Of a DNA stretch of 64,000 bases, positions 11,925 to 64,000 are shown one piece after another. The translations under genes and the position numbers were made by a program. The first letter of the stretch is position 1; the number at the start of each line of letters is the position of its first letter. The notes beneath the pieces are model-generated. The model was given only the letters and a program-made list of their open reading frames with translations, was not told the origin of the DNA and ran no database searches. The DNA comes from Buttiauxella selenatireducens (GTDB lineage: Bacteria > Pseudomonadota > Gammaproteobacteria > Enterobacterales > Enterobacteriaceae), in the NCBI RefSeq assembly GCF_031432975.1, contig NZ_CP133838.1, forward strand, positions 992,001 through 1,056,000. Direction: 5' to 3'.

Positions 11925-12019
11925 CTCTGGAACCGCCTCGCGTTATTTAATGTAATCCTCTGAAAGTGTCGTTAAGTGCTATCGTGTCACCCTGCGATAT
12001 GTCTACAATCGGAGCCAAT

Positions 12020-12543: not shown

Positions 12544-12567
12544 TGGCACAACAAAACAGCATAGTAA

Positions 12568-13677
<1,110 letters not shown>

Positions 13678-44669: not shown

Positions 44670-44670
44670 A

Positions 44671-46278: not shown

Positions 46279-47998
46279 AGTTCTGATCGCCAACCGTGGC
46301 GAGATTGCCGTTCGTATTATTCGTGCCTGCCGGGATTACGGTGCGCAGGCGGTGGCGGTGTACGCTGACCCGGATGCCAACGCGATGCACGTGCAAATGG
46401 CCGATGAAGCCTGGGCGCTGCCTGGCACAAGCTCCGCAGACACCTATTTAAACATTGAGGCGCTGGTGAATATTGCCAGACGCAGCGGTGCAACGATGGT
46501 GCACCCTGGTTATGGGTTCCTCTCTGAACGTGCTGAATTTGCTCGTGCGGTGCAGGCGGCGGGGCTCATCTGGATTGGCCCGCAACCGGAAACTATCGAA
46601 AAGCTCGGCGACAAAGTGCAGGCGCGTAAAATCGCTATGGAAGTGGGCGCGCCCCTGGTAAAAGGCACGCCTGATCCGGTGAGCAGCGGGAGAGAAGTGC
46701 TGGATTTTGCCGCCACTTATGGTTTGCCTGTGGCGATAAAAGCCGCCTTTGGCGGCGGTGGGCGCGGTCTGAAAGTGGCCTGGAAACTTGAAGAAGTGGA
46801 AGAGCTTTATCACTCTGCGACTCGCGAGGCACTGACCGCATTTGGGCGAGCTGAATGTTATGTCGAGCAGTATCTTGACCGCCCACGCCATATAGAAGCG
46901 CAGGTGATAGCCGATAAACACGGCAATGTGGTGGTGCTCGGTACGCGTGACTGCTCATTGCAACGTCGCAACCAGAAACTGGTGGAAGAAGCGCCCGCCC
47001 CGTTTATTACTGAAACCCTTCGCGAGCAAATCCACCAGGCTGCCCACGATATTTGTGCCCATGCGGGTTACATTGGCGCAGGCACCGTGGAGTTTTTACT
47101 GAGCCGCGACGGGACGTTGTCGTTCCTCGAAGTGAATACCCGCCTCCAGGTAGAACATCCGGTCACCGAAGAGACAACCGGGCTGGATATTGTGGTGGAA
47201 CAATTGCGGATTGCGGAAGGTTTACCGTTGAGTATTCAGGCAACGCCTGCACCGCGTGGCCACTCGTTTGAGTTCCGCATTAACGCCGAAGATGCCGGAA
47301 AAGGCTATTTACCTACGCCAGGCAAGATAACGGTATTCCGTGCACCCAGCGGGCCGGGGATTCGTCTGGACAGTGGCGTTGACGAAACATCAAGCGTACC
47401 AGGCTGTTATGACTCGCTGATGGCAAAACTTATCGTCACCGGTAGCACGCGCGAACAGGCCATTGCCCGCGCACGCCGCGCCCTGCGTGAGTTTGAAATC
47501 GGCGGCGTTGCATCCGTACTGCCGTTCCATCGTGCAGTGATGGACGATGCCGATTTTACCGACGGTTTCGCCGTTCATACCCGCTGGATTGAAACTGACT
47601 TTGCCGGGCGCATTGAATTTGCCCCGCGCCAGGTACCCAAACCGGATGAAGTTTTAACTCGTACCTGGATTGAACTTGATGGTCGCCGGGTTCAGCTCGG
47701 CCTGCCTGCGAACATGTTTAGCGGCGCGGTTATCTCAGAACCTGGCAATGTGCTGACGCCTGTGGCTGAACCGGTCAATGAAGACGCCATTGAAGCGCCC
47801 ATTTCTGGCGTGCTTCACAGTTGGTTGGCGCAAGAGGGCAAAGCGGTGCAGCAAGGCGAAGTGATTGCCGTCATGGAAGCCATGAAAATGGAAGTCCAGG
47901 TTGTGGCACATCGCAGCGGCACGTTGAAACATCAGGCTACGACCGGTAATACGATGGATGCCGGGAGCGTGCTTGGGGTGATTAGCCCGCTTAGCTGA
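46259..47998 (+). CDS. Biotin carboxylase with C-terminal biotin carrier domain
   Basis: The 579-residue protein carries a biotin carboxylase module at about 5-450 (KVLIANRGEIAVRIIRA, ATP-grasp with AAFGGGGRGLKV, LVEEAPAPFI, FLEVNTRLQVEHPVTEE) and a biotinyl domain with EAMKMEVQ, Lys543 being the biotin site. It makes carboxybiotin; no acetyl- or propionyl-CoA carboxyltransferase is near. The GTG start lies 20 bases inside the pxpBC gene, so both are co-translated, and the KipI-KipA protein is the likely partner. The natural substrate is unknown; 5-oxoproline or a small amide is suggested by context. Confidence 0.9.
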   Translation: MTTALHKVLIANRGEIAVRIIRACRDYGAQAVAVYADPDANAMHVQMADEAWALPGTSSADTYLNIEALVNIARRSGATMVHPGYGFLSERAEFARAVQAAGLIWIGPQPETIEKLGDKVQARKIAMEVGAPLVKGTPDPVSSGREVLDFAATYGLPVAIKAAFGGGGRGLKVAWKLEEVEELYHSATREALTAFGRAECYVEQYLDRPRHIEAQVIADKHGNVVVLGTRDCSLQRRNQKLVEEAPAPFITETLREQIHQAAHDICAHAGYIGAGTVEFLLSRDGTLSFLEVNTRLQVEHPVTEETTGLDIVVEQLRIAEGLPLSIQATPAPRGHSFEFRINAEDAGKGYLPTPGKITVFRAPSGPGIRLDSGVDETSSVPGCYDSLMAKLIVTGSTREQAIARARRALREFEIGGVASVLPFHRAVMDDADFTDGFAVHTRWIETDFAGRIEFAPRQVPKPDEVLTRTWIELDGRRVQLGLPANMFSGAVISEPGNVLTPVAEPVNEDAIEAPISGVLHSWLAQEGKAVQQGEVIAVMEAMKMEVQVVAHRSGTLKHQATTGNTMDAGSVLGVISPLS

Positions 47999-48060: not shown

Positions 48061-48915
48061 TTATTCTTGTTCGCGCTCTTTGAGCGCCCGCTGACGCTCG
48101 TAAAAATCATCTTCCGCGGTAATGATTTCATCCATCAGTGAATCCATATCCACGTCATGAATCTCTTCGACGAACAGACCGGTTAGCGGTGTTTCTGGGG
48201 TTAATTTTCCATCTTCATATAACGCCCAGATTTCTTTCGCGTAACGTGTGCCCAGCAACTGCGGAGCAAACTGGCCATAGTAGGCCGTGATGTTATTCAC
48301 ATCACGTTTGAACATGGATTCCGCATGGTTGTTTGCGGCGGCGTCTACCGCTTGCGGCAAGTCGATAATGACCGGCCCTTGCGCATCGAGCAGCACGTTA
48401 AACTCCGATAAATCCCCATGCACAAGACCTGCACACAACATGCGCACGATATTGCGGATCATCGTATCGAAATCAGCAATGGCGCTTTCTTCGTCCAGGG
48501 TGACATCGCTAAGACGTGGCGCAACAGCACCTTCAGCGTCCGTGACCAGTTCCATCAATAACACGCCGTCAATGCACATATAAGGCTGCGGGACGCGGAC
48601 TCCGGCGTTAGCAAGACGGAACAGCGCATCGACCTCGGCCATTTGCCAGGTTTCTTCCTGCTGCTTGCGTCCGAATTTTGAGCCTTTCTGCATGGCGCGG
48701 TTATTACGGGTATTACGGACTTTACGCCCTTCCTGATACTGCACCGCCTGCTTAAAGCTGCGTTGCATCGCTTCTTTGTACACTTTGGCGCACTGGATTT
48801 TGTCACCGCATAAAACGGTGTAAACGTCGGCTTCTTTGCCGCTCTTCAGTCGCTGGAGCACATCATCAACCAGGCCGTCATCGACCAGCGGTTGGAGTCT
48901 GTTTGGGATTTTCAT
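48061..48915 (-). CDS. RIO1-type serine protein kinase
   Basis: A 284-residue bacterial RIO kinase. The ATP-binding region includes GKEADVYTV (27-35) and Lys44 in CAKVYKE, the catalytic loop is LVHGDLSEFNVLL with His166-Asp168, and the metal-binding Asp185 is in VIIDLPQAVD. Basic stretches at about 50-90 (KVRNTRNNRAMQKGSKFGRKQ) may contact nucleic acid. Archaeal and eukaryotic relatives act in ribosome maturation; the role in enterobacteria is not established to my knowledge. The gene stands alone, with terminator-like sequence on one side and a 730-bp gap on the other. Confidence 0.88.
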   Translation of the reverse strand: MKIPNRLQPLVDDGLVDDVLQRLKSGKEADVYTVLCGDKIQCAKVYKEAMQRSFKQAVQYQEGRKVRNTRNNRAMQKGSKFGRKQQEETWQMAEVDALFRLANAGVRVPQPYMCIDGVLLMELVTDAEGAVAPRLSDVTLDEESAIADFDTMIRNIVRMLCAGLVHGDLSEFNVLLDAQGPVIIDLPQAVDAAANNHAESMFKRDVNNITAYYGQFAPQLLGTRYAKEIWALYEDGKLTPETPLTGLFVEEIHDVDMDSLMDEIITAEDDFYERQRALKEREQE

Positions 48916-49647
48916 GCGGCTCTTTATACCTTATTTCTGCCGTTTTTCGTACCAAAAACGCGGATAGCGATGCGCCCTTTGCCAAAGTGGGGATGAGGCT
49001 CACGCGAGTCCCGTGTATCTAATATATTCGATACTGCCGGGTTGTTATCACGTTTGGATTATTTCTTTCCACGACAGCTACCCTGCGTTTTTAAATTTGA
49101 GTTAAGTAACCCATTTGGTTTAATAAGTCATCAGAATAATCTGCTAACAAACTTGAACGATAATCAGCCATAAAGCAGGGAGGGCGATATACAATATTCC
49201 ACATCTTGCATATTTGAAATGTATATTCTCATAGAACGTGCCGCTCAATAATTCTCATTTCCATCCTGTAGCAAAATATTTTATTAAAAATGAGATCTCG
49301 GCCTTGCAATATACCGGAGAGTTTTCTTGCTTTTTCCTCTGAATGGAAATCCTCAAAAAAGCCCTGGGCTGATTCTTTTATTTTCGTTCAAAAATAAAAG
49401 AAAGAACACGGCATCAGAGATACTGGGCTGTTAAAATATCGAGTCGCTCTTCCGACCAGACAGCAGAATGATTTGTAAGGTATAGCGATTAGCATAGAAA
49501 AGTATATAAGCCTGGACTGAAGCAAAAGATCAATAAAGCAGCAAAGGGATGAAACCTGGCTGGCGTCAGTCCTCACGGGGCTGAGGTTTGTCACCTTGCT
49601 CTGGTTGATACTGTAACTTTTTTTGTTCACTGCAAATGGAAGGCACT
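48916..49647. other. 732-bp intergenic stretch without recognised genes
   Basis: The stretch between the RIO kinase and LysR genes is AT-rich and shows no ORF with a family pattern. It should contain the RIO kinase promoter at its left end and the LysR promoter at its right end. Small inverted repeats such as AGCCCTGGGCT near 49360 are visible. It marks the boundary of the methylaspartate island and may contain decayed sequence. Confidence 0.5.
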
Positions 49648-50553
49648 ATGAGAGGAAAAATACCGAAGACCGAATTGCTGGTGACGTTTGAAGTGGTGGC
49701 GCGTCACGAAAGCTATACTCGAGCAGCAGAAGAGTTGGCTTTAACACAGAGTGCTGTGTTCAGACAAGTCAACGCGTTGGAGGATTTTCTGCATACTGAA
49801 TTATTTGACCATGCAAAAAAACGTATTTATTTAAATGCTGCTGGTAAGCACTATCTGAGCATTGTTAAAGAAACGCTAAATAAACTTGAGCGTGATACTC
49901 ATTCGATAATGGCCTGGCAGCCTGCTGTACGGGCCATTGAGTTAGCAGTAAACCCCACATTAAGTACTCATTGGTTGATTCCCAATTTACGCGAGTTCAA
50001 TGAATTAAATCCCGATATTACCGTCAATATCCATTCCCTGGCCAATATCGGTGATTTTCTAAACAATGATTATGACGCCGCTATTATGCGAGAGGATTTT
50101 TGTACGCCATGGTCGGGTATGGAATATTTATTTGAAGAGGAAATTCTGCCGGTCTGTAGTCGAAGCCTGCTTTCCAGTCCTGGTCAAAAGTTATCCGTGG
50201 ATGAATTGCTTAATGAATTTCCTTTGTTGCACCAAAGTACGCGTACCACCGGTTGGCAAGAATGGTTTGCGCTCTCAGATGTGAGCAGCCCACTGGTAAA
50301 TAAAGGCCCACGCTTTGACTTACTCTCTATGCTAATTGCTGCGGTACGATCCAATCTGGGAACTGCATTATTACCTCGTTTTGCCATTCAGCGCGATTTG
50401 GACAGTGGTGCGATGGTTATTCCTTGTGACGTTCCTATTCGCACCGGGAACCGCTTTATTTTGACCTGGCAGGCAGAAAAAGCCGTTCCCTTGCATTTAC
50501 AAACTCTTCGCACCTGGTTAATGGAAAAATCGCTGATCTCCCAGCTCACCTGA
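49648..50553 (+). CDS. LysR-family transcriptional regulator
   Basis: A 301-residue LysR protein of the GcvA-like subgroup. The helix-turn-helix is at about 8-62 (TFEVVARHESYTRAAEELALTQSAVFRQVNALED), and the effector-binding domain spans about 90-298. The start at 49648 (MRGKIPKTELL) has GGAAGG five bases upstream; an in-frame ATG four codons earlier lies in that site. It converges with cobO and lies at the edge of the methylaspartate cluster, so it is the likely regulator of fumD-glm genes. That target is inferred. Confidence 0.87.
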   Translation: MRGKIPKTELLVTFEVVARHESYTRAAEELALTQSAVFRQVNALEDFLHTELFDHAKKRIYLNAAGKHYLSIVKETLNKLERDTHSIMAWQPAVRAIELAVNPTLSTHWLIPNLREFNELNPDITVNIHSLANIGDFLNNDYDAAIMREDFCTPWSGMEYLFEEEILPVCSRSLLSSPGQKLSVDELLNEFPLLHQSTRTTGWQEWFALSDVSSPLVNKGPRFDLLSMLIAAVRSNLGTALLPRFAIQRDLDSGAMVIPCDVPIRTGNRFILTWQAEKAVPLHLQTLRTWLMEKSLISQLT

Positions 50554-50589: not shown

Positions 50590-51192
50590 TTACCAGTCAA
50601 TACCAGATTGAGCCTGAATCCCGCTATCAAACGCATGTTTTACCGGCCGGATTTCACTCACGGTGTCTGCAATATCAAGCAACTGACTGTGACAACCGCG
50701 CCCGGTCACTACCACACTTTGATGAGAGGGACGATTCACTATTGATGCAATCACCTCCTGAATATCCAGATAGTGATACGCCAGCATATAAGTGAGTTCG
50801 TCGAGAACAACCAGGTCGTAGCGCGCATCCGCGAGCATGCGCTTACTTTCCTGCCAGACCGCATGAGCGGCCTGTATATCCTCTTCTCTGTTTTGCGTCT
50901 CCCAGGTAAAACCGGTGCCCATAATGTGGAATTCAACATTGTGCTGGTGCAGCGTGTTGTATTCGCCATTATCCCACTGGCCTTTAATGAATTGCGCGAC
51001 CCCGACGGTTTTGCCATGGCCGATAGCACGAGTCACGGTCCCAAAGGCTGCGGTCGATTTGCCTTTACCGTTCCCGGTAAAGACGAGCACGATACCTTTC
51101 CTTTCGGTTGCCGCCGCCACGCGACTGTCGACCCGCTCTTTTATCTTTTGCTGCCGCTGACGATGGCGCTCAGTATTGGTACGCGTTTCCAT
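50590..51192 (-). CDS. cobO: Corrinoid adenosyltransferase CobO/BtuR
   Basis: This enzyme adenosylates cob(I)alamin and so makes the coenzyme form required by glutamate mutase. The 200 residues (196 in E. coli BtuR) carry the P-loop TGNGKGKSTAAFG (39-51), the conserved TGFTWETQNRE and VVLDELTYMLAY segments, and the C-terminal RPVKHAFDSGIQAQSGIDW. Its stop faces the lysR gene, and it lies ten bases downstream of fumD, so the two are one transcript. E. coli btuR is in another location; this copy may be a second, pathway-dedicated one. Confidence 0.93.
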   Translation of the reverse strand: METRTNTERHRQRQQKIKERVDSRVAAATERKGIVLVFTGNGKGKSTAAFGTVTRAIGHGKTVGVAQFIKGQWDNGEYNTLHQHNVEFHIMGTGFTWETQNREEDIQAAHAVWQESKRMLADARYDLVVLDELTYMLAYHYLDIQEVIASIVNRPSHQSVVVTGRGCHSQLLDIADTVSEIRPVKHAFDSGIQAQSGIDW

Positions 51193-51201: not shown

Positions 51202-52854
51202 TTAATGCTTCGCAGGGCAAGATGCGCAGCTTTGCTTATTCTCAAACTGTTGGAAGAAGTTATTGCCTTTATCGTCGACCAGAACAAAAGCCGGCAAGTT
51301 TTTCACTTCCATCATCCAGACCGCTTCCATGCCCAGTTCAGGGTACTCGAGGCAGCGCAAGCTTTTCACATATTGCTGTGCCAGTAATGCCGCAGCGCCG
51401 CCGATACTCCCAAGATTAAATCCACCGTGTTTGTGGCAGGCATCGGTCACTTGCTGACTCCGATTTCCTTTTGAGAGCATGATCAAGCTGCCACCTGCTG
51501 CCTGGAACTGGTCAACATAACCGTCCATGCGTCCGCCAGTGGTTGGCCCGAGTGAACCGCACGCCTGGTTGTCAGGAGTTTTGGCCGGGCCTGCGTAATA
51601 GACGATATGGTTTTTCATGTAGTCCGGCATCGGCTCACCCTTATCGAGCCGGGCTTTGATTTCTGCATGGGCAATGTCGCGGGCGACCACGATAGGGCCA
51701 TTTAACGATACGCGTGTGCCGATAGGCAGCGCTGACAGGTCGTCCAGGATCGTCTTCAGTGGGCGATTAAGGTCGAGTTGAACCGTCTGGGCGCTATTCT
51801 CTGTACGCTGAGAATCGGGGATAAATTTACCCGGATTGTGTTCGAGTTTTTCCAGCCAGATACCCTGTTTATTAATCTTGCCTTTAATGTTGCGGTCAGC
51901 AGAGCAGGAGAGGGCCATCGCTATCGGGCACGAGCCGCCATGGCGTGGCAGGCGGATCACTCGGATATCATGGGCGAAGTATTTGCCACCAAACTGTGCG
52001 CCGATACCAAATTCGCGGCTGGCATTAAGTAACGCGGTTTCAAGTGCCGTGTCGCGGAATGCCTGGCCCAGTTCGTTACCCTCGGTTGGCAGGTTGTCAT
52101 AATATTTTGTCGACGCCAGTTTAGCGACTTTCAGCGCCTGATCGGCCGACAGTCCACCCACCACAAACGCGATATGGTAAGGAGGGCAGGCAGCAGTACC
52201 CAGCGACTTCATTTTTTCAATCAGGTAAGCGGTTAGCTTTTCAGGCTGAAGAAGCGATTTGGTTTCCTGGAACAAGGCCGCTTTGTTGGCGGAGCCGCCC
52301 CCTTTGTTGACGAACAGGAAGCGATATTCGTTGCCCGGCGTCGCGCTGATATCAATTTGTGCCGGCAGGTTGGTCTGCGTGTTCACCTCGGTGTACATGT
52401 CCAACGGCGCATTCTGCGAGTAACGGAGATTATTTTCCTGGAAAGTGGTGTAGATGCCCTTACTTAAGGCTTCGGCATCATCGCATCCCGTCCAGATGTG
52501 CTGACCTTTAGACGCCACAATGGTTGCCGTCCCGGTATCCTGGCAATTGGGCAGCACGCCTTTTGCCGACACTTCCGCGTTGCGTAACAGTTGTAGCGCA
52601 ACGTATTTGTCATTATCACTGGCCTGTGGGTCGTGCAGGATGCTGGCAACTTGTTTGAGATGCGTAGCACGCAGGAAAAACGACGCTTCATAAAAAGCAT
52701 GCTGAGCCAGTAACGTTAAGGCCTCAGGGGCAACTTTGATGACCTCTTCACCGTCCAGTTCTGTCACGGTAATGTGTTGGTCGCTGAGCAATGCGTATTC
52801 CGTACTATCTTTGCTTTGAAAAAACGGATCCTGCCAGGCAAATGGTTTAGACAT
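51202..52854 (-). CDS. fumD: Class I fumarate hydratase, probable mesaconase (FumD-like)
   Basis: A 550-residue [4Fe-4S] hydro-lyase of the FumA/FumB class. Cluster Cys residues lie in [22 protein letters not shown] and [26 protein letters not shown] forms the C-terminal active-site part. E. coli class I fumarases also hydrate mesaconate, and E. coli O157:H7 FumD belongs to a glutamate mutase/methylaspartate cluster of similar content. By context the job here is mesaconate to citramalate. FumA or FumB cannot be excluded by sequence alone. A terminator-like hairpin separates it from the glutaminase gene. Confidence 0.82.
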
Positions 52855-52918: not shown

Positions 52919-53920
52919 TTATTTTGCTAAAAAGAGATTAGACCGTGTCGCTTGCGCAACATATTCAATGGTTTGCTGGGCGCGCACGCTGTTACCTGCG
53001 GAATCCAGCGGCGGAGAGTACACGGCGATGGCATATTCCCCTGGAACCACGGCGACCATGCCGCCACCCACACCGCTTTTCGCCGGAATACCGACGGTAT
53101 AAAGCCATTTGCCGCTGCCGTCATACAGCCCGGCAATAGCCATTTCCGCCAACACTTGCGGAACATATTTTTCGTTTAACAGCTGCTTTCCGTTGTAAGG
53201 CGATTTGCCTTTATTGGCGAGGACGGCCCCCATTTTGGCGAGCTGTTCGACGGTGACATCGACGGAACACTGGCGGGTATAAATTTCAACGGCTTCGCGT
53301 GTATCGCCATAGAAACTGTTATAGGAGTCCATTAATTGCGCCAGTGCCTGGTTGTGCTGGTTGGTCTCCATTTCTGATTTGAATACCGGTTCGTTGACGG
53401 TTAACGAAGCATCCGCCCACGCGTTCAGGTTGTTGAGAATTTTGTTCCAGCGGTCGGTTTTATCTTTTGCTTCAATCAGGCTCACGGTGCTCATCGCACC
53501 CGCATTCACCAGCGGGTTCTCCGGCGCGCCTTTTGTCAGCTCCACGGCTAAACCTGAGTTGAACGGCAGCCCGGTGGCATTGGCACCGAGTTTATCCAGA
53601 ACCTCTTGTGGCCCGTGTTGTTCCATGGCGAGCGCCATCGTAAATACCTTGCTCAGGGACTCCATGGGGAAGGCTTTTTTAACATCACCGACCTGGTAAA
53701 TTTTGCCGTCCACCGTGGCGATGGTGATGGCAAAATTTTGTGGACTGTAGGTGGCAAGTGCTGGGATATAGTCAGCGACTTTTCCGTCGTTATTGTTTTT
53801 ATATTTTTGATGCGCCTGCGTGATGAGTGCGGTGTAATCTGGCGCGGATTGCGCAAGTGTTGTGGCGCTGAATAAGAAACTGATCGATAACACACTTGCT
53901 GCTAATAGTTTTATTTTCAC
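52919..53920 (-). CDS. Exported class A glutaminase
   Basis: A 333-residue glutaminase with a Sec signal peptide (KIKLLAASVLSISFLFSATTLAQSA), so it hydrolyses glutamine to glutamate and ammonia in the periplasm. The beta-lactamase-like S-x-x-K is in PMESLSKVFTMAL, and the conserved NAGAMSTVSLI, YNSFYGDTREAVEIYTRQCSV (in part) and KSGVGGGMVAVVPG blocks are present. Cytoplasmic E. coli YbaS and YneH lack a signal. The GTG at 53920 is chosen because AGGG lies eight bases upstream and the signal then has a normal length; the frame is open to 53959. It supplies the symporter gene next to it. Confidence 0.88.
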   Translation of the reverse strand: MKIKLLAASVLSISFLFSATTLAQSAPDYTALITQAHQKYKNNNDGKVADYIPALATYSPQNFAITIATVDGKIYQVGDVKKAFPMESLSKVFTMALAMEQHGPQEVLDKLGANATGLPFNSGLAVELTKGAPENPLVNAGAMSTVSLIEAKDKTDRWNKILNNLNAWADASLTVNEPVFKSEMETNQHNQALAQLMDSYNSFYGDTREAVEIYTRQCSVDVTVEQLAKMGAVLANKGKSPYNGKQLLNEKYVPQVLAEMAIAGLYDGSGKWLYTVGIPAKSGVGGGMVAVVPGEYAIAVYSPPLDSAGNSVRAQQTIEYVAQATRSNLFLAK

Positions 53921-53949
53921 GTTGTAGCCCTGTGTTGTTGTGGTAAAAA

Positions 53950-53975
53950 AGGCCGACAAACGTCGGCCTCAAATA
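53950..53975 (-). terminator. Terminator after the symporter gene
   Basis: AGGCCGAC (53950-53957) pairs with GTCGGCCT (53962-53969) over four bases; on the minus strand the stem is followed by TTTTTTACC. It ends the glmSLE-mal-symporter transcript before the glutaminase gene. Confidence 0.88.
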
Positions 53976-53978: not shown

Positions 53979-55277
53979 TTAAACGGTCGCTTCAGTTACT
54001 GCCGGGCGTTCGGTGCCAGGGGTTTTGGTCGGAGCGGCACCACGGCAACCTTCACCGAAGTGTTCACCTTCCCAACGGCCAACAATGGCTGCACCCATCG
54101 CGTTACTCATCACGTTGGTTGCTGAACGGCCCATGTCGAGGAACGGATCGACACCCATCAACAGAATCAATCCTGCTTCTGGAATATTGAACTGGTTGAG
54201 CGTGGCGGCGATAACCACCATTGACGCACGGGGTACACCGGCCATGCCTTTAGAGGTCAACATCAGGATCAACAGCATGGTGATCTGCTCGCCCATGCTC
54301 AGTTCAATGTTGCAAGCCTGCGCAATGAATACCGTGGCGAAAGAGCAGTAAGCCATTGAGCCGACGAGGTTAAAGGAGTAGCCGATTGGCAGCACGAAAC
54401 TGGCAATCTTTGAGGAAACGCCAAACGTCTCCAGTTTATTCAGCGTGCCAGGGAATGCCGCTTCGGAGCTGGAGGTGGTGAAAGCCAGAAGGGCAGGTTC
54501 GAGGATCATTTTGGTCAGACGACCAATACACGGCCCGACGAGCATGGTGGAGAGGCCAATCAGAATGGCCCAGAGCATCCCCAGAGTCAGGTAGAACTCA
54601 CCCATGAAGATCCCTGCGCTGACCATCACACCCAAACCACGTTCGGCGATAAGACCAGAGATAGCAGCGAAAACGGTCAGTGGTGCAAACAGCATCACAT
54701 AGCCCGTCAGCTTCAGCATCACGTGTACCAGAGAATCGAGCACTTTCACGATAGGTTCGGCTTTTTCCCCAATTGCCGCCAGGCTGCAGCCGAGGAAAAT
54801 AGAGAACACCACAATTTGCAGAATTTCATTGCGCGCCATCGCATCGACAATACTGGTTGGCACGGCGTGTGAAATAAAGACTTTCAGCGTGAACGGTTCA
54901 GATTTAACAGCTGACAACGCGCCGACATCGTGAGGCACAAAGTTAATACCCGCACCCGGTTGGAAGATATTAACAATCACCAGACCCAGAGCAATGGACA
55001 GCAGAGAGGCGCAAATAAAGAGGAAGAACGTTTTCGAGAATATACGACCCAGGGTTTTAGCATCGCCCATTTTGGCAATACCAACAACCAGGGTAGATAT
55101 TACCAATGGCGCGATAATCATTTTCACCATACGTAAGAATATGGTGGTGAAAATGGAAATATCTCCTGCATACGATTTTGCTGTATCTGCCGATGCCATA
55201 TTATTAATGACCACACCCGTAATCATGCCTAATATCAGGCCTAGTATGATCATTTTTGTTAAACTAATTTTCTTCAT
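53979..55277 (-). CDS. Dicarboxylate/amino acid:cation symporter (DAACS), probable glutamate uptake
   Basis: A 432-residue inner-membrane carrier of the GltP/DctA family with eight helices and two re-entrant loops. HP1 reads TTSSSEAAFPGTLNKLE and the last helix MGVDPFLDMGRSATNVMSNAMGAAIVGRW. The cation-binding motif, usually NMDGT or NLDGS, reads NLVGS, so an Asp is replaced by Val. The C-terminal tail (about 400-432) is long and polar. Placed between the glutaminase and the mutase operon, it is expected to import glutamate or a product such as mesaconate. Confidence 0.88.
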   Translation of the reverse strand: MKKISLTKMIILGLILGMITGVVINNMASADTAKSYAGDISIFTTIFLRMVKMIIAPLVISTLVVGIAKMGDAKTLGRIFSKTFFLFICASLLSIALGLVIVNIFQPGAGINFVPHDVGALSAVKSEPFTLKVFISHAVPTSIVDAMARNEILQIVVFSIFLGCSLAAIGEKAEPIVKVLDSLVHVMLKLTGYVMLFAPLTVFAAISGLIAERGLGVMVSAGIFMGEFYLTLGMLWAILIGLSTMLVGPCIGRLTKMILEPALLAFTTSSSEAAFPGTLNKLETFGVSSKIASFVLPIGYSFNLVGSMAYCSFATVFIAQACNIELSMGEQITMLLILMLTSKGMAGVPRASMVVIAATLNQFNIPEAGLILLMGVDPFLDMGRSATNVMSNAMGAAIVGRWEGEHFGEGCRGAAPTKTPGTERPAVTEATV

Positions 55278-55438: not shown

Positions 55439-55756
55439 CTACAGGTCTAACTCAATACTTAATAAAGGTGCATGTTGCTGAGCACCATAAACATCATTGT
55501 CACCTACGCTTCCTGAAATAATATCGCGTGGCATGACAATCTTTACCGCGTTAGCGGGATCAAACCAGACAATGCGGTGAATAATTTCAGGCTCGACGTG
55601 ATATAAACCGGCAATAAGCTGTGGTGTTAATTGCTCAGATGCTTTTACTCGCTGATAGTCTTCCCGGGTTTTAAATAAAATATCTAATACCAGTTCGTAC
55701 GGTCCGGCGTTTTTGGAACGAATGACCTGCGCCAATGAGCAAATGGACTGTTTCAT
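55439..55756 (-). CDS. DUF4387 protein
   Basis: A 105-residue soluble protein with the DUF4387 pattern: LAQVIRSKNAGPYELVLDILF at the start (about 7-27) and the FDPANAVKIVMPRDIISGSVGDNDVYGAQQHAPL block (about 65-98, in part). DUF4387 often accompanies DUF1446 proteins or is fused to them. Its start overlaps the DUF1446 stop by ATGA. Function unknown; the tight coupling suggests a small subunit of one enzyme. The 161-bp gap to the symporter contains a GGGATA/TATCCC hairpin. Confidence 0.85.
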   Translation of the reverse strand: MKQSICSLAQVIRSKNAGPYELVLDILFKTREDYQRVKASEQLTPQLIAGLYHVEPEIIHRIVWFDPANAVKIVMPRDIISGSVGDNDVYGAQQHAPLLSIELDL

Positions 55757-57123
55757 GCCTGAACTCCTTCTGGCGTCACCTGTTCAATGGAGAAATCAAA
55801 ACGTAGGTCGTCGTTTGCCTCTATCAGGTGATAGATAGAGAACTCATACACTGGCCCTGCCTGAATGTCGGATGGCGAGAACGGGAACGCGAGGTTACCG
55901 GCGGTCGCAATTCGGTTTTCATAGCCGTAGTGCAGCAGGGTTGAGCGCACCAGCGAACAGACGCTGTTGGCGATATCCTGCGTCGGAGCGACCACGTCCA
56001 ACAAGATCCCCAGTTCATGTCCGGCTGTTTGCATCGGTTCATGGATACCCATGACGCCGTTTTTGCCATACAGATGGAAAGTGATGCGGATACTGTCGTC
56101 ATTGAGCGAGAGGTTGCTCGCTACGCTGGCTTTGACCTCTTCAAGAATGGTATCAATGCCGGCGATCATGATCGGATCGCGTGTCCCGGCAATGGTCAGG
56201 CAACGGAAACCGACCTGACGCGCCCCTTCCAGTTTCAGCGCATAAGGCGTTTCTTCGTGGCGTGAACCGCTGACGTAAACCTCTCCGTCGTTAACGGCCT
56301 TGAAGCTACAGCCTTTCAGATTCAGCACGCCGCCCGGTCCTGGCAGGAAGTACGGATCGGACTTCTCATACAGCGTGTGTGCCGCAGCGGATGTTTCGGT
56401 AAATTTGCGCTTAGGATTGAATGTCTTCAGCGTAAAGCCGTGTTCATCAATGATGCCCATGGCGCAGTCCGAACCAGAACCTGGCGTCGCGGCAATGGCC
56501 GCACATTCGAGGATCTTCCCGCAGTGCAGCGCCAGCCCTTCATCAAAGCCTTTCATGATCGGCAGCGCGGCGAAACAGGCTGGATCGTAAGCACGTCCTC
56601 CTAACACCACCTGCGCACCGGCTTCCAGCGCACGCTGGAAAGGTTCGATGCCCATTTGCGCGACGATGTAAGTACTCTCTTCAATCGCTTCGTGGGTCAG
56701 TTCAGGGACAAAATCCAGTGCGGTGATCGCGCCGTTATCCAGTGCCTGATGAACCGTGGCTTTGTCGACATCTGACGGGATCAACGCCATGGAGAAACTT
56801 AAATTCTCTTCCTGCGCAATCTCGAGGATTATCTGGCGACACCATTCCAGGTGCGGTGCAGCACCTGAACCTCCGGCAGTACCAATGACGACCGGAATGT
56901 TGTTTTTAACACCCGCGGTGATCATATAGCGCAGATCGCGTTTGACGCCCGCCCGATCGGTAAAGGGTTTACCTGCCCCGAGGTAGTGGGGACCAGGATC
57001 GGAGGAACCCGCGTCAACAGCAATCAGATCCGGTGACTCTTCCATGGCTTTACGAAAACTCTCTTCCGGGAAGCCATAACCCAGGATAGCCGTCGGTGAC
57101 AAGATCTTAAATGTGCGTGCCAT
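55753..57123 (-). CDS. DUF1446 / AtuA-family protein
   Basis: A 456-residue soluble protein related to AtuA of acyclic terpene utilisation. Visible features are VDAGSSDPGPHYLGAG (about 36-51), a glycine-rich GTAGGSGAAPHLEWCRQI (about 79-96), LGGRAYDPACFAALP and TPGSGSDCAMGIIDE. No catalytic activity is firmly assigned to the family in my knowledge. It sits three bases after methylaspartate ammonia-lyase and overlaps DUF4387. It is therefore a prime candidate for a later step of the pathway, such as handling citramalate. Confidence 0.85.
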   Translation of the reverse strand: MARTFKILSPTAILGYGFPEESFRKAMEESPDLIAVDAGSSDPGPHYLGAGKPFTDRAGVKRDLRYMITAGVKNNIPVVIGTAGGSGAAPHLEWCRQIILEIAQEENLSFSMALIPSDVDKATVHQALDNGAITALDFVPELTHEAIEESTYIVAQMGIEPFQRALEAGAQVVLGGRAYDPACFAALPIMKGFDEGLALHCGKILECAAIAATPGSGSDCAMGIIDEHGFTLKTFNPKRKFTETSAAAHTLYEKSDPYFLPGPGGVLNLKGCSFKAVNDGEVYVSGSRHEETPYALKLEGARQVGFRCLTIAGTRDPIMIAGIDTILEEVKASVASNLSLNDDSIRITFHLYGKNGVMGIHEPMQTAGHELGILLDVVAPTQDIANSVCSLVRSTLLHYGYENRIATAGNLAFPFSPSDIQAGPVYEFSIYHLIEANDDLRFDFSIEQVTPEGVQA

Positions 57124-57126: not shown

Positions 57127-58368
57127 TCAATCCTTTGTCTGCAGGAGCGCAATAGTGCGGTTCATTTCGTTGAACACAATATTGAGACCTTCATCAAAGC
57201 CCATACCTGGCTTTATCAACATGCGCATTGGACGCGCGGCCAGTGCCACGTGAACACAGGTGCGAGCACTGATCTCGGTTTCGTTACAGGTACCGCCTTG
57301 ATAGGCTTCCATTCCGTGTTTATTGCAATACAGCACGGCGTCAACGATGTTATGAATTCCCCCGAGATCCGGCGTTTTGATCTGCACCATGTGGCAACTG
57401 CCCGCGTCGGTGAAATCAACGATATCCTGGTAGGTATTACACCATTCGTCGGCGACGATCTTCACACCGGAACCCAGACGGGTCAGCTCGTTGGTAATGG
57501 CGGTCAGCATGAGGATCTGATCCGGTTTGTTACCGGCATCAACAGGGCCTTCAATGTACAGCGGCAGACCCTGGGCTTCTTTCTCAAGGCTGGCGATGTA
57601 CTCGGCGCAACGCACCGGATCCATATCGAAAATCAGACCGATGGTGCCGTACACGTCGATATGCAGTGTCGGCTGATAGCTCTTGCTGGTGCGCAGCTTC
57701 AGAATGCGGTCAGACAACCAGCGCACGTATTCGCGCAGTTTTTCGCCATGGAAGCCCAGCTTCTCCTCCACGTTGTTGATCAGCGCATGCGGCAAGACAT
57801 CCACACCTTTCAGGATCATTTTATCGACAGCGATATAGCGGTCATCCCCGCTCTGGCCGAATAATGGAATCGCTTCCGGGACACATGGCAACTGCCATTC
57901 GTTACAGACCACTTCCGCTTTGATACAGCCTGTAGCCAGCGCAGTGGCATCGAGCAGCGCCTGAGAAAGACCATAACGAACGGCGGTATGAAGCAGATGC
58001 CCGTCGATCATCAATGTGTCGAAAAAGCGCGCATTCGGCAGGAACGCGTCGACATCACGGCCTTCCAGCAACGGTTTGATATGGTCGTTGAGGAACGGAA
58101 TAAAGTTTTCCGCAAGGAACAGCGGATCGCGGCCGCCAGCCCCTGAATATTGCACCGCTGCACAGTCACCGACAGCAACCGCCCCATTTTCCAGAATCAG
58201 CTGTACCGAAACGCATTCCCCCGCCTGACGCACGGCTGTGAAACCCGGTGTGACGGGTTTGCCGGTATAAATGAAGCCGTCGTGACCGGCACCATCTTTA
58301 ATGGCCTGTTGATCGTCAAAATAAAATGAGGAGTAGCCTGCGGTGAAAAGCGCTTGTTTAATTTTCAT
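57127..58368 (-). CDS. mal: Methylaspartate ammonia-lyase
   Basis: The enzyme removes ammonia from (2S,3S)-3-methylaspartate to give mesaconate. The 413 residues closely resemble the Citrobacter amalonaticus enzyme (MKIKQALFTAGYSSFYFDDQ start). It has the enolase fold: metal ligands in LHIDVYGTIGLIFDMDP, YIEGPVDAGN and KIVADEWCN, and the catalytic Lys (about 331) in MVQIKTPDLGGIHN. ATG at 58368 is used; another ATG lies immediately before it at 58371. It overlaps the glmE stop. Confidence 0.96.
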   Translation of the reverse strand: MKIKQALFTAGYSSFYFDDQQAIKDGAGHDGFIYTGKPVTPGFTAVRQAGECVSVQLILENGAVAVGDCAAVQYSGAGGRDPLFLAENFIPFLNDHIKPLLEGRDVDAFLPNARFFDTLMIDGHLLHTAVRYGLSQALLDATALATGCIKAEVVCNEWQLPCVPEAIPLFGQSGDDRYIAVDKMILKGVDVLPHALINNVEEKLGFHGEKLREYVRWLSDRILKLRTSKSYQPTLHIDVYGTIGLIFDMDPVRCAEYIASLEKEAQGLPLYIEGPVDAGNKPDQILMLTAITNELTRLGSGVKIVADEWCNTYQDIVDFTDAGSCHMVQIKTPDLGGIHNIVDAVLYCNKHGMEAYQGGTCNETEISARTCVHVALAARPMRMLIKPGMGFDEGLNIVFNEMNRTIALLQTKD

Positions 58369-59813
58369 CATGGTCTTCCTATTAATTTACTGTGGGATAC
58401 AGCGTTGATGTCATCAATAACCATCTGGAATGAAGGTTTACGGCCTTCGAATTGCGCACGCTCCGCGACGTAGTCACGGTGCAGGGCCAGAATGTCATCC
58501 GGCAGCGGAACCGCTCCAGCATCAAGAATACGAATGGCGCCCGCGTTATCGCGCACCGGTAAAATTTTGCCTGCGTTACAAGAGGCTGGGGCGAAAGGTA
58601 CATCCAGCACGCCAGCTTCAAACGCCAGTACTGTTCCGCGTGCGATATCGCCATTGCCCAGCTCGAAGACCTTCTTCAGCACGGCACGCACTTCGCTCTT
58701 AATCAGGGACACTTCCTGATCGACGGCTGGGCACGCTGGGAATTTCTGGTCGCTGACCATGTTGAGCATCTGGCGTGAGGCTTTCAGACCCTGGGCGTTA
58801 GCCGCAGCCGTTGGGATACCGAAGGCTTCGTGTGGACTCTTGGTGATCACCTTAGTGGCACCGGCCATACCCGCCACTGCTGCACCCCAGGAGATAATGC
58901 CGAAGGCTTTGGATTCATCTTCCGGGAAGCCGCCCATCCACTGGTGGAATACGGTGCTCAGCTCGTAATCATCGAAGCCGTAGTTATAGAAATACTCATG
59001 GGACAGTTCGCGCAGCGACTTAATTGCAGCGATATCCTGGGTCAGGCAGCCCACCTGGCCGTAGCCAACGGTAATGGATTTCACGCCCTGTTCCAGCGCC
59101 AGCAAACCTTCAATGATCGCCACGGAATGCGACATGAAAGGCGGGATCAGCGTGCCGGTCAGCGGGCCGAACGGTTCGCGGTTAATGCGAATGCCATTTT
59201 CTTCATACAGACCCATCAAACGGTCGCAGTACTGCCAGTCACGGATGGATTTTTCCAGCGTGACGCGCTTGGCGTAAGGGATGTTGTAAGAGATGCCGCC
59301 ACCTTCGTAGCTGGTAAATCCACTGGCCATCGAGATTTCAGCCAGCAGGCGCGCATCCGGCGTTCCGTGGCGAATCTGTATGGGTTTTTCCAGCGTTTCG
59401 GTCAAACGACGGCAGGCAGCCACACCGTGGTTGACAACGGGCAGGCCGTTTAACTTGGATGTCCCGGCTTCAATGGATTTCTGAATCCCGACCGCCGCTT
59501 CTTCGTAGCGGTTAAGACGGGTATAGGCATCAATGGTGGAAGGTAGAAGGTCACACTCTTCCTGCAACGTTTTGAGCAGTTCGATGTGCTCATCCATTAA
59601 GGCCACGCCCGCACGCGGCTGGCTCAGGGTTTTACCTTCCTGATCGGCCTTCAGCAGGGCATGAGAAAAGCGTTTATTCTCCGGAATGGTTTGCTGGTAC
59701 TTCACGCCATCTTCAAAGTTCTCAACGTCTTTACCGGTATGCCAGGTCTGGAGGACCTGATGCCGTTCGGTCATGAATTCATCATGGGTTAACTTTTTAT
59801 TACGGAGTTCCAT
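58368..59813 (-). CDS. glmE: Glutamate mutase epsilon subunit GlmE
   Basis: GlmE is the catalytic TIM-barrel subunit of adenosylcobalamin-dependent glutamate mutase, which rearranges L-glutamate to 3-methylaspartate. The 481 residues match the usual 480-485. Conserved blocks include QPRAGVALMDEHIELLK (about 60-76), VNHGVAACRRL, IRHGTPDARLLAEI (Arg for substrate carboxylate) and KSITVGYGQVGCLTQDIAA. It acts with GlmS, which brings the cofactor, and is followed without gap by mal. Confidence 0.96.
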   Translation of the reverse strand: MELRNKKLTHDEFMTERHQVLQTWHTGKDVENFEDGVKYQQTIPENKRFSHALLKADQEGKTLSQPRAGVALMDEHIELLKTLQEECDLLPSTIDAYTRLNRYEEAAVGIQKSIEAGTSKLNGLPVVNHGVAACRRLTETLEKPIQIRHGTPDARLLAEISMASGFTSYEGGGISYNIPYAKRVTLEKSIRDWQYCDRLMGLYEENGIRINREPFGPLTGTLIPPFMSHSVAIIEGLLALEQGVKSITVGYGQVGCLTQDIAAIKSLRELSHEYFYNYGFDDYELSTVFHQWMGGFPEDESKAFGIISWGAAVAGMAGATKVITKSPHEAFGIPTAAANAQGLKASRQMLNMVSDQKFPACPAVDQEVSLIKSEVRAVLKKVFELGNGDIARGTVLAFEAGVLDVPFAPASCNAGKILPVRDNAGAIRILDAGAVPLPDDILALHRDYVAERAQFEGRKPSFQMVIDDINAVSHSKLIGRP

Positions 59814-59828: not shown

Positions 59829-61217
59829 CTATAGGGTTAAACATTGAATGCTGGTGCGAGCGGCAAGCTGCGGATAAAGCCTGGCGACGTTTGCCAGCAG
59901 CGGAAGCAAGCCTTTTGAATCGCGGTAATATTCAAATTGGGTGGGTAACAGAATGCGTCTGCCGTCGTCGTCAAGTTCGCGGTATTTCATCCAGTTGTGG
60001 ATGTCGAACTGGCTGGCGCGGGATAGCCATCCGCCTGAGCCAATCACTCGACGAACGGTGGTCAGGTCGCGTCCCATCTGCAAATCGACGCTTCCCACGC
60101 AGGTACACACCTGTTTTTTGGTGCCTGCATGGCGTTCGCTGGCGTAACCGACACACAGTCCGGCCAGTACGGTGTCGAAATACCGCTCTTCCTCGTTACA
60201 CGGCAGGTAATCCGGTTGAGCCGCCAGATGTTGCAGATAGCGATAAAAAGCTTCCTGGCGTTGTGGTTGATGTGCGAAGACCACATTCACCAGCTCCTGG
60301 GTGCTGTCACCGACCACCATGGCAGAGACGCGCATCCCCAAATCGCCCTCAACGGTGCGTTTGACGAACGGTTCAGGCACGCCGTGCAGCACGGTGTCAG
60401 GAGAAAGGTTATTTGCGCTGGTGGAGTAGACATCGGTCGTCGCGCCGCCCATATCAATCAGCATGAACTCCTTCCACGCGCTGTCGGAATCGCTGATCGC
60501 TTTCGCCAACTCGTAGACGGTCCACGGCGTCGGCATCGGCTCCTCGCCCGTTTCCCCCACGATGACGTCCAGACCTTTTCCTTTGACGATACGGGACAAA
60601 AACAGATCGCAAATCGCCTGCCGGGCGGCATAAGGATTGGGGTGATCGAGATCGGGCAGAATGTTGTCCACCGTGGTCAGATCTTTATGCCCCAGAATCG
60701 ACTGGATATCGTCCTGAATGTCGCGGTTTCCGGCGTAGATAATGGCGCAATCCAGGTTCGATTCCGCCAGCGCATGGGCGTTGGCCAGACCGTAACTTTC
60801 TTCACCGCCGTCGGTTCCACCGGTAAACAGCAGAATGTCAGGAGGTGAGGTTTCCAGCGCCTTGATATCGTGGCGATTGAGCTTGTACGAGTAGTACTGC
60901 GCGATTTTCGCTCCCGCTGAGTGGGCGGTCACTTTCGCTGATTCCAGAGTGATTGACGGCACCAGCCCCATCGCGGCAACGGCAAGACCGCCTTTCGCTG
61001 ATGAGGAGTATTTCAGGGTCACTTCACCGCTGTTCAACAGTGGGCGAGCATCGCTAACATTTAGCACCTTATTCAGGCTGTTAAAGAATCCGTCAGCCAA
61101 ATGGTGCGTGGTGGTTGGGGTCAGGACGTGGTTCACCAACGTTAACGCATCCCCCTCCCGAGCAAAGAGGGCTGCCTTGGTCCACGTCGAGCCGATGTCG
61201 ACAGAGACGATTTGCAT
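59829..61217 (-). CDS. glmL: Glutamate mutase activator GlmL (MutL)
   Basis: GlmL is an ASKHA-fold ATPase thought to reactivate glutamate mutase by swapping damaged cobalamin. The 462 residues show the phosphate-1 motif SVDIGSTWTKAALF (4-17) and the phosphate-2 motif LIDMGGATTDVYS (about 252-264). It lies between glmS and glmE, the order known from Clostridium (mutS-mutL-mutE). The start overlaps the glmS stop by ATGA. It is not the mismatch repair protein of the same old name. Confidence 0.93.
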   Translation of the reverse strand: MQIVSVDIGSTWTKAALFAREGDALTLVNHVLTPTTTHHLADGFFNSLNKVLNVSDARPLLNSGEVTLKYSSSAKGGLAVAAMGLVPSITLESAKVTAHSAGAKIAQYYSYKLNRHDIKALETSPPDILLFTGGTDGGEESYGLANAHALAESNLDCAIIYAGNRDIQDDIQSILGHKDLTTVDNILPDLDHPNPYAARQAICDLFLSRIVKGKGLDVIVGETGEEPMPTPWTVYELAKAISDSDSAWKEFMLIDMGGATTDVYSTSANNLSPDTVLHGVPEPFVKRTVEGDLGMRVSAMVVGDSTQELVNVVFAHQPQRQEAFYRYLQHLAAQPDYLPCNEEERYFDTVLAGLCVGYASERHAGTKKQVCTCVGSVDLQMGRDLTTVRRVIGSGGWLSRASQFDIHNWMKYRELDDDGRRILLPTQFEYYRDSKGLLPLLANVARLYPQLAARTSIQCLTL

Positions 61218-61648
61218 CAGATGGCCTCTTCAAGACAACGTTCGTCAATGTCATTCGCAATCAGGCTACAAACATCTTCGAGATCGCGGCTTGGGGCGAA
61301 GACGCGGTTGAAGCCCATCTCTTTGAACTTGGCTTCAATGTCTGCAAAGTCATGTTTGCCGACGACCAGGTTGCCGCCCACATAGAGCAGAATGTCGCCA
61401 ATCCCGCGTTCAATACAACGCTCGCGCAGACCCAGGCAGTCGATGTCACCGTGACCATAAATGGATGACACCACAATGGCATCGGCACCCGTTTCGATAG
61501 CGGCATCGATGTATTCGTCCTGGCTTACCATTACCCCCAGATTGATTACGCGAAAATCATGGGCAGTAAAAACGCGATCCAAAACTTTATTGCCTACCGC
61601 ATGGCAGTCAGCACCAATGACGCCAATAACAAGTGTTGATTTTTTCAT
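61217..61648 (-). CDS. glmS: Glutamate mutase sigma subunit GlmS
   Basis: GlmS is the cobalamin-carrying subunit of glutamate mutase. The 143 residues form a Rossmann-like B12 domain with the base-off/His-on motif D14-x-H16-x2-G19 in GADCHAVGNKVL, followed by the SSIYGHG and LYVGGNLVVGK segments that hold the nucleotide tail. It is the first gene of the operon, with AGAGGA before the ATG. The name collides with glucosamine-6-phosphate synthase GlmS, which is unrelated. Confidence 0.95.
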   Translation of the reverse strand: MKKSTLVIGVIGADCHAVGNKVLDRVFTAHDFRVINLGVMVSQDEYIDAAIETGADAIVVSSIYGHGDIDCLGLRERCIERGIGDILLYVGGNLVVGKHDFADIEAKFKEMGFNRVFAPSRDLEDVCSLIANDIDERCLEEAI

Positions 61649-62332: not shown

Positions 62333-63106
62333 ATGAATGAAGGGAAAGTCTGGCTTGTTGGTGCTGGCCCCGGTGATGTTTCTTTAATTACCGTAAAAGG
62401 GTTATATGCGATTCGTCACGCAGAAGTGATTGTTTACGACCGTTTGGTTAACCCTGAACTATTAAGACAGGCTCCCGAAGACTGTCTCATGATTAACGTT
62501 GGGAAGAACCCTAATCACCACCCGATTCCCCAGGACGAAATTAATGCCATCCTGGTGGAATATGCCCGGCAGAACAAACAGGTTGTCCGTCTAAAAGGCG
62601 GTGACCCTTATGTTTTTGGTCGTGGTGCTGAAGAAGTGGAACAATTGGCAAAAGAGGGGCTGGCATTCGAGGTTGTACCGGGTATCAGTTCCGCTATTGG
62701 TGGCCTGGTTTACGCGGGGATCCCGGTGACGCACCGCGATTACGCCTCCAGCTTCCATGTTATTACCGGACACATGTGTCAGGGTAATGACCCGCAAAAC
62801 TGGCATGCTTTTGCGCAGCTCGACGGGACGCTGGTTATCCTGATGGGCATGACCCGGCTGGTAGAAATATGCCAGCAATTAATGGCCGGCGGAAAGTCTG
62901 CGGATACGCCAGCCGCCGTGGTGATGTATGCCAGCCAGACGCGCCAGCAGGTTGCGCGAGGAACGCTTGCCACGATTCACCTCGAAGTCGAGCGCCAACA
63001 ACTTCATGCCCCCGCACTGATCGTTATTGGTGACGTTGTGAATCTGCATGATGTACTGGCATTTTCGGCTACCCAGCTAGAAATTGACCAGGAATTTGTC
63101 TGCTAA
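62333..63106 (+). CDS. cobA: Uroporphyrinogen-III C-methyltransferase CobA
   Basis: CobA (SUMT) methylates uroporphyrinogen III at C2 and C7 to precorrin-2, the branch point to cobalamin and siroheme. The 257 residues hold VGAGPGDVSLITVKGL (9-24), LVNPELL, RLKGGDPYVFGRGAEEVE (about 84-101) and VPGISSAIGGLVYAGIPVTHRDYASS. There is no CysG-type oxidase/chelatase domain, so this is a stand-alone SUMT serving B12 synthesis. cobD starts 27 bases downstream. The CobA name is also used for corrinoid adenosyltransferase in Salmonella, which is a different protein. Confidence 0.95.
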   Translation: MNEGKVWLVGAGPGDVSLITVKGLYAIRHAEVIVYDRLVNPELLRQAPEDCLMINVGKNPNHHPIPQDEINAILVEYARQNKQVVRLKGGDPYVFGRGAEEVEQLAKEGLAFEVVPGISSAIGGLVYAGIPVTHRDYASSFHVITGHMCQGNDPQNWHAFAQLDGTLVILMGMTRLVEICQQLMAGGKSADTPAAVVMYASQTRQQVARGTLATIHLEVERQQLHAPALIVIGDVVNLHDVLAFSATQLEIDQEFVC

Positions 63107-63133
63107 TGCGCGGGTTTTCTGTGAGGCAGACCC

Positions 63134-64000
63134 ATGAGTGAACATGGCGGGAACAGTGTCGAAGTCGCACAACAACTCAGTATTGCCCCAGAATCCCTGC
63201 TGGATTTCAGCGCAAATATCAATCCTCTGGGTTTATCAGAGCGCGTCAAATCGCTGATTACCTCTCATCTGGATGTTATTGAGCGCTATCCGGATATTGA
63301 ATATCGCCATCTTCATCAGGCGCTGGCAATGGCTAATCAGTGTGATGTTGAGCAGGTGATTGCTGGAAACGGCGCCACGGAGCTGATTTATGGCCTGGTG
63401 CGGGCGTTATCGCCACGTCGCGCAATGCTTCTGGTGCCCGGTTTTGCTGAATATCGCCGGGCACTGGTGCAGCATGGCTGCGAGGTGATTGAATATCGGT
63501 TAAATGAGGAGCAGGGCTTCCAGCCGGACAGACAACTCCTCGAAGCCGTTCGTCAACGAAGGCCCGACTGTCTATTTATTGCCACGCCGAATAACCCAAC
63601 AGGATTGATGCCTGAACCTCAGCTGTTAATCGAACTGGCGGAATTGTGTGAAACGCTCCAGATAGCGCTGATAGTGGATGAAGCTTTTATTGATTTTCTT
63701 CCCCATGGATCAAGCCTGGCCTTACGTTTGACGCACTCGCGTTATCTCTATCTGCTGCGTTCGCTGACCAAATTTTTTGCCATCCCAGGTCTTCGTCTGG
63801 GCTATTTGCTCAGTGGTAACAGGGCGAGAATCCGTCAGCTGAAAAATAACCGCGAGCCCTGGTCGGTCAATGCACTCTCGTCACTCGTCGGCCAGTACCT
63901 GCTCAATGATGACGATTACATTAATGTCAGCCATAAGTATATTGCCCGGCAGCGGGATTATTTATGGCAGGCCCTGAGCCAGTTTGCGTCGTTGCTGGTC
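63134..64000 (+). CDS. cobD: L-threonine-O-3-phosphate decarboxylase CobD, 5' part
   Basis: The gene runs off the window; 289 codons are visible from ATG 63134. CobD makes (R)-1-amino-2-propanol phosphate, the linker of the cobalamin nucleotide loop, with PLP. The start MSEHGGNSVEVAQQL and LLDFSANINPLGLS are typical. The PLP-phosphate and Asn regions are GNGATELIYGL and ATPNNPTGLMPE, the Asp is in IVDEAFIDF, and the PLP Lys is in LRSLTKFFAIPGLRLGY. It follows cobA, which suggests a cobalamin synthesis operon continuing beyond the window. Confidence 0.93.
   Translation, partial: MSEHGGNSVEVAQQLSIAPESLLDFSANINPLGLSERVKSLITSHLDVIERYPDIEYRHLHQALAMANQCDVEQVIAGNGATELIYGLVRALSPRRAMLLVPGFAEYRRALVQHGCEVIEYRLNEEQGFQPDRQLLEAVRQRRPDCLFIATPNNPTGLMPEPQLLIELAELCETLQIALIVDEAFIDFLPHGSSLALRLTHSRYLYLLRSLTKFFAIPGLRLGYLLSGNRARIRQLKNNREPWSVNALSSLVGQYLLNDDDYINVSHKYIARQRDYLWQALSQFASLLV

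Follow-up and report, generated by a model that had tools for sequence, protein, structure and literature searches.

A DUF1446–DUF4387 gene pair behind methylaspartate ammonia-lyase in Buttiauxella selenatireducens probably encodes the two-subunit citramalate lyase CmlAB

Organization of the Methylaspartate Gene Cluster

The DNA analyzed here (hereafter, the window) is a stretch of 64,000 nucleotides from B. selenatireducens, corresponding to positions 992,001 to 1,056,000 of contig NZ_CP133838.1. On its minus strand, a series of genes runs from position 61648 down to 50590 in the order glmS-glmL-glmE-mal-cmlA-cmlB-symporter-glutaminase-class I fumarase-cobalamin adenosyltransferase. The series starts with genes for the B12-binding subunit of glutamate (methylaspartate) mutase, GlmS (61217..61648; PRK02261, 6.8e-71), the mutase accessory protein GlmL (59829..61217; NF040745, 2e-152), mutase subunit E, GlmE (58368..59813; TIGR01503, 1.2e-252), and methylaspartate ammonia-lyase, Mal (57127..58371; TIGR01502, 3.4e-163; PDB 1kko, 5.1e-272). 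Among the matches listed, the closest Mal was that of Buttiauxella sp. A111, with 100% identity in the best segment. Beyond cmlAB lie genes for a GltP/DctA-like dicarboxylate/amino acid symporter (53979..55277; PF00375, 6.7e-102, with NCBIfam matches below the cut-offs), a glutaminase (52919..53959; PF04960, 2e-106), a fumD-type class I fumarase (51202..52854; PF05681 and PF05683), and a cobalamin adenosyltransferase of the BtuR/CobO type (50590..51192; PF02572, 3e-65). A LysR-type gene on the plus strand (49636..50553; PF00126/PF03466) possibly regulates the cluster. Promoter and terminator scans of the cluster yielded sites no more numerous than those found in shuffled sequence.

Some neighboring genes flank this series. 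A D-glutamate cyclase gene adjoins carboxyltransferase and biotin carboxylase genes at 43860-47998, near the glutamate cluster; these genes are perhaps related to 5-oxoproline. A protein with a RIO1-type kinase domain is encoded at 48061-48915, in the interval that separates the biotin carboxylase gene from the LysR gene. At the other end (62333-64000), a uroporphyrinogen-III methyltransferase gene and a CobD-like gene, the latter cut by the end of the window, adjoin the genes of the B12-dependent mutase on the opposite strand.

The pair under study consists of cmlA (55753..57123, minus strand; 456 aa) and cmlB (55439..55756, minus strand; 105 aa). Both open reading frames are present where the sequence-only reading had located them, and cmlA directly follows the ammonia-lyase gene, its start lying 3 nt past the stop of mal. 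The stop of cmlA and the start of cmlB share 4 nt (ATGA), and AAGGAG, a good ribosome site, precedes the cmlB ATG; the translational coupling proposed earlier is thus a fair reading. CmlA matched Pfam PF07287 ("AtuA", which we take to be the former DUF1446) with an E-value of 7.3e-20 and 71.6 bits, against a gathering cut-off of 22.8. Since this match covers positions 61-392 of the 437 of the profile and residues 63-389 of the protein, CmlA is not a canonical AtuA in full, which would include a C-terminal domain of its own. CmlB matched PF14330 (DUF4387; E 1.3e-39). The database records examined still name the two proteins "AtuA family" or DUF1446 and "DUF4387".

The gene order from the LysR gene to glmS is the same in the FumD cluster of Escherichia coli O157:H7, where the LysR gene and the fumarase gene also hold the same positions; the exception is the glutaminase, for which, unlike in the window, no gene is annotated in the E. 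coli record examined. A cmlAB match was obtained in 1084 E. coli genomes; it reached at least 80% coverage in 1080 of 5426 complete genomes, and fell below 80% in 4. In E. coli NZ_CP007392.1 (ST2747) the match is limited to 127 bases at the end of the DUF4387 gene, which looks like a partial loss of the cluster.

The methylaspartate pathway set in the window thus comprises GlmS, GlmE, GlmL, and Mal, together with a candidate mesaconase. The FumD-type fumarase, which the sequence-only reading did not mention, presumably fills the mesaconase step, as judged from its domains and its position in the cluster; FumD of E. coli O157 is described as a mesaconase in the available excerpts of Kronen and Berg, 2015 (PMC4682846). 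If so, the cleavage of citramalate is the step left without a gene. According to the same excerpts (PMC4682846), the fate of citramalate in these bacteria was unclear in 2015, and the gene downstream of mal encoded a DUF1446 protein of unknown function. The passages available from that study report no Mal activity in E. coli O157 under the conditions tried, and no detectable citramalate lyase in extracts of cells grown on citrate, acetate, or propionate; citrate, isocitrate, and methylisocitrate lyases were the candidates tested there (PMC4682846).

Identity of the Gene Pair

PDB entries 9erq and 9evf contain chains that the depositors named "Citramalate lyase, subunit A (cmlA)" and "subunit B (cmlB)". 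CmlA from the window is identical to chain A of 9erq at 430 of 456 residues (94%), and CmlB is identical to chain B at 95 of 104 aligned residues (91%). As in the window, the deposited CmlAB has two subunits of 456 and 105 aa, and no difference was found other than its origin, which, given this level of identity, is another enterobacterial species. Chain A of 9erq proved identical over 456 of 456 residues to CmlA of a Klebsiella michiganensis locus (L032), and chain B matched at 102 of 104 residues in the same locus, where cmlA directly follows mal as it does in the window.

On the basis of these near-identical proteins, we consider it highly probable that the methylaspartate route ends with this pair as CmlAB, a citramalate lyase of two subunits. 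It had been suggested from the sequence that the pair acts on mesaconate or citramalate, possibly as a new lyase. The citramalate lyase part of that suggestion is strengthened by the PDB names, and the presence of a FumD-type fumarase in the cluster makes the mesaconate branch less likely. The novelty does not stand: since the near-identical proteins in 9erq and 9evf carry that name, the citramalate lyase identity of the pair is already known from the PDB. No paper on CmlAB was found by title in the literature searched, which lay mostly outside subscription journals and in which short names were only partly sifted, and the word DUF4387 occurred in no paper of that literature.

Distribution of Cleavage Systems Behind mal

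Clostridia possess a citramalate lyase, CitDEF (EC 4.1.3.22), one of whose subunits is an acyl carrier protein and which works with CitC, CitX, and CitG. Its reaction and its place in the pathway are the same as those proposed for CmlAB, and its proteins are different. In order to compare loci, a scan was made with a Mal alignment, and the best 80 of 578 confirmed Mal loci, which are not a random sample, were taken. CmlA was present in 51 of these 80 loci and CitF in 18; none had both, and 11 had neither. CmlB was also found in 49 of the 51 CmlA loci, and the other two (L055 and L076) stop at a contig edge. None of CitC, CitD, CitE, CitF, CitX, or CitG was detected in the DNA stretch examined at the 51 CmlA loci. 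The 18 CitF loci contained CitE (18), CitD (15), CitC (12), CitX (8), and CitG (8). The enterobacterial clade of the Mal tree accounted for 23 of the 51 CmlA loci, and others came from phyla including Spirochaetota, Planctomycetota, Lentisphaerota, Acidobacteriota, and Bacillota.

These loci bear on the possibility that the pair itself uses mesaconate as substrate, either as a hydratase (mesaconase) or in another reaction, and that citramalate is disposed of elsewhere. That 18 of the 51 CmlA loci, among them those of Morganella and Hafnia (L047 and L043), have no fumarase homologue in the stretch examined, some of them being short contigs, would be in keeping with such a role. However, a fumarase homologue accompanies CmlA in the remaining 33 loci, the window cluster has a FumD-type fumarase of its own, and the PDB depositors named the pair a lyase, so that we regard a mesaconase as very unlikely.

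In five loci (L053, L063, L065, L071, and L072), mal is immediately followed, at about 11250-13460, by genes for a CoA-transferase III and an HpcH/HpaI lyase, as determined by a Pfam scan of two of the loci and by homology for all five; these genes possibly encode a route via mesaconyl-CoA or citramalyl-CoA. The loci belong to Marinobacter, Ruegeria, and similar Pseudomonadota, and the genes hold the position that CmlAB has in relatives. In a further locus (L086:6318-9662), succinyl-CoA-ligase-like genes and an HpcH/HpaI lyase gene follow mal, in what appears to be another means of C5-acid disposal, by ATP-dependent CoA activation. The presence of such CoA-transferase III or CoA ligase genes with HpcH/HpaI at the same place in related Mal clusters could suggest that CmlAB, too, handles CoA esters, as a citramalyl-CoA lyase or a CoA-transferase. 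Nevertheless, neither protein matched a CoA-related family in Pfam or NCBIfam, and searches of the 51 CmlA loci with two CoA-transferases as queries gave no homologue, so that nothing that would form a CoA ester is evident there. This role is, in our estimation, slightly less probable still than that of a mesaconase.

Among the other loci, a 3 kb contig (L087) contained CitD and a CitE-like fragment. None of the Cml, Cit, or CoA cleavage systems was found in 4 of the 80 loci: L088, whose sequence stops soon after mal; L107 and L084, which have CitF elsewhere in the genome, L084 having no mutase genes nearby; and L097, where Mal and a fumarase are present, no lyase was found in the locus, and DUF4387 and CitF are absent from the genome. 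One identifiable cleavage system was therefore present in 76 of the best 80 of 578 loci, and among these 80, CmlA was never found together with CitF or CoA-transferase III. By the searches made, CmlAB is unrelated to the other cleavage systems; CitE itself is a member of the HpcH/HpaI family. These observations agree with the citramalate lyase reading, in that the pair occupies the position that genes of CitDEF or of CoA-dependent lyases take in other methylaspartate clusters.

In the Mal tree, a quick one with mixed support for its deep branches, the split between Cml and Cit needs one change, so that 51 versus 18 loci do not amount to many independent observations. The mutual exclusion of Cml and Cit is close to a single event, and strict statistics on these counts were dropped for this reason. 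The CoA-transferase loci branch among the Cml rows and represent one or two separate events.

Of the 51 CmlA loci (from the best 80 of 578), 50 have an approximate gap of 5-210 nt between mal and cmlA, and such tight linkage would fit a pair that assists the mutase or the ammonia-lyase as an accessory protein or in folding. However, CmlA was not seen in 29 of the 80 Mal loci (in two cases the contig is cut), and 20 other loci examined have the pair and no Mal in the stretch, which makes this role scarcely credible.

Citrate Lyase in the Genome

The genome to which the window belongs (5.22 Mb, one contig) was searched for a dedicated citramalate lyase elsewhere. Its only CitF gene belongs to a dpiBA-citCDEFXG operon, a canonical citrate operon, which is accompanied by a DASS transporter gene. 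As far as this search goes, no dedicated citramalate lyase elsewhere speaks against the earlier suggestion. CitF, CitD, and CitE are encoded near 3.88 Mb, far from the window at 0.992-1.056 Mb; the earlier statement that no citDEF-like gene lies in the window therefore holds for CitF and CitE, and none of the CitF, CitE, and CitD subunits is present in the methylaspartate cluster. Besides CitE, one HpcH/HpaI protein scored over the cut-off in this genome.

A whole-genome check was carried out on 34 hand-picked genomes of the 80 (16 Cml, 9 Cit, and 9 with neither). DUF4387 was found in 16/16 Cml, 0/9 Cit, and 0/9 neither genomes, and CitF over the cut-off in 6/16, 9/9, and 2/9, respectively. 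The CitF present elsewhere in 6 of the 16 Cml genomes counts against the citramalate lyase assignment, as do locus L097 and the 18 CmlA loci with no fumarase homologue.

The complete citrate lyase operon of the genome might be taken to mean that citrate lyase cleaves citramalate and that the pair does something else. Against this, CitF did not exceed the cut-off in 10 of the 16 Cml genomes checked, many of which are metagenome-assembled and perhaps incomplete; in addition, citrate-grown E. coli O157 showed high citrate lyase and no detectable citramalate lyase activity, in the available excerpts of PMC4682846. Cleavage by citrate lyase thus has as slight a probability as a role of the pair as an accessory factor.

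Proposed Reaction and Conserved Residues

With CmlAB as the citramalate lyase, glutamate would be converted to 3-methylaspartate by GlmES, 3-methylaspartate to mesaconate by Mal, mesaconate to (S)-citramalate by FumD, and (S)-citramalate to acetate and pyruvate by CmlAB. The last step may proceed as a retro-aldol split of the C2-C3 bond, in which a general base would deprotonate the 2-OH and acetate would depart as the enolate. CmlAB would carry out this cleavage without the acyl carrier protein and the acetyl-thioester group that CitDEF lyases need, and a divalent metal is plausible.

Residues conserved across 11 Cml sequences, and shared by at least 19 of 21 members of the wider family, include D37, D42, R177, D180, K203, E206, C207, H249, E253, K297, E299, D316, E370, and H432 of CmlA, and R13, S14, K15, N16, D25, K72, R77, G82, and D88 of CmlB. 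Most of the active site would lie in CmlA, with CmlB completing it at the interface through its RSKN and D88 motifs.

CmlA was further compared with canonical AtuA of the acyclic terpene route, using 12 of 19 high-scoring AtuA loci, namely those with a long open frame. The two are related (profile comparison probability of 98% over 301 columns), with 19% identity over the aligned stretch. All 12 canonical AtuA sequences share R177, D180, E206, C207, Y252, E253, and K297 with CmlA; these seven, together with two glycines and an alanine, are the identical ones of 24 aligned CmlA core positions. Canonical AtuA differs at other core positions, with K203 replaced by H and H249 by Q in 12 of 12. The retro-aldol cleavage may use a core common to CmlA and canonical AtuA. 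The latter also has a C-terminal domain of its own that does not match CmlB: that CmlB might be this domain in detached form looked plausible by eye, and it was rejected because the profile comparison gave a probability of 0.3%.

In the portion available of one study, AtuA is tentatively described as an acetate-releasing lyase (PMC4847356), and a review, as far as its accessible text goes, assigns that lyase step to LiuE instead (PMC4097962). That this family would also include a citramalate lyase that releases acetate favors, short of proof, the reading of AtuA as the lyase.

AtuA-DUF4387 Pairs in Other Contexts

DUF4387 was detected in 25 of 398 genomes drawn from the phylum of the window. 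The 20 loci with no Mal in the stretch, which comprise 13 genome regions and 7 plasmid records, contained 21 AtuA-type and 21 DUF4387 matches, with one pair fused. This fusion (L119) is 716 aa long and has both Pfam domains. A second long open frame, of 697 aa, in another genome (G494) is known by its length alone. An apparent fusion in a 574 aa frame of a third locus (L007) was discarded as a read-through, a 456 aa AtuA-type open reading frame being present in another frame.

A class I fumarase gene was found beside or near the pair in 3 of these 20 loci (L123, L124, and L126), and genes for proteins of the MmgE/PrpD or isopropylmalate-dehydratase type in 4 (L116, L120, L129, and L131); the other 13 had no such hydratase neighbors. 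Hydratase neighbors were thus present in 7/20 loci versus 0/20 control regions, the controls being located in 9 genomes, the 7 plasmid loci having no matched controls, and the MmgE/PrpD and dehydratase queries having come from two of the 20 loci themselves (L129 and L131). For the 13 genome regions alone the figure was 3/13, and for FumD alone 3/20, against 0/20 controls. This hydratase neighborhood of pairs without Mal is no more than suggestive.

Three of these loci have the following arrangement. In a Neorhizobium plasmid (L126:6607-9816), the AtuA-DUF4387 genes are directly followed by a class I fumarate hydratase gene; their cluster also encodes a P450, an agmatinase, and an aldehyde dehydrogenase, and the stretch has no Mal. 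On the Klebsiella conjugative plasmid pHNLC3 (L124:931-14673), the AtuA, DUF4387, and fumarase genes belong to a catabolic cluster that also encodes several dehydrogenases; a fosA3 gene and IS26 are nearby. In the Sedimentisphaerales genome G655 (L123:5381-8593), the pair lies directly behind its own two-subunit fumarase; it is the second pair of this genome, which has CmlAB after mal at another locus (L080).

These observations may be read together as follows. AtuA-DUF4387 proteins may form a broad family of lyases that need no acyl carrier protein and that split tertiary or alpha-hydroxy acids, acetate or another free acid being released. CmlAB would be its best-defined member; elsewhere, the pairs would act on alkylmalates after a partner hydratase (a class I fumarase, or an enzyme of the MmgE/PrpD or isopropylmalate-dehydratase type), and AtuA, by the conserved core it has in common with CmlA, would be the acetate-releasing lyase of terpene breakdown. 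We put this forward tentatively, as a real possibility that falls somewhat short of an even chance. It is this family-level reading that may be the new part of the present work.

The assignment of CmlAB would close the gap left in 2015 concerning how citramalate is disposed of in enterobacteria with a methylaspartate cluster, and such a two-subunit lyase, apparently independent of an acyl carrier protein, would be easier to employ than CitDEF. If the family-level reading is true, there would be a chemistry to test for paired AtuA-DUF4387 genes of unknown role, and the role in terpene breakdown tentatively given to AtuA would be better supported.
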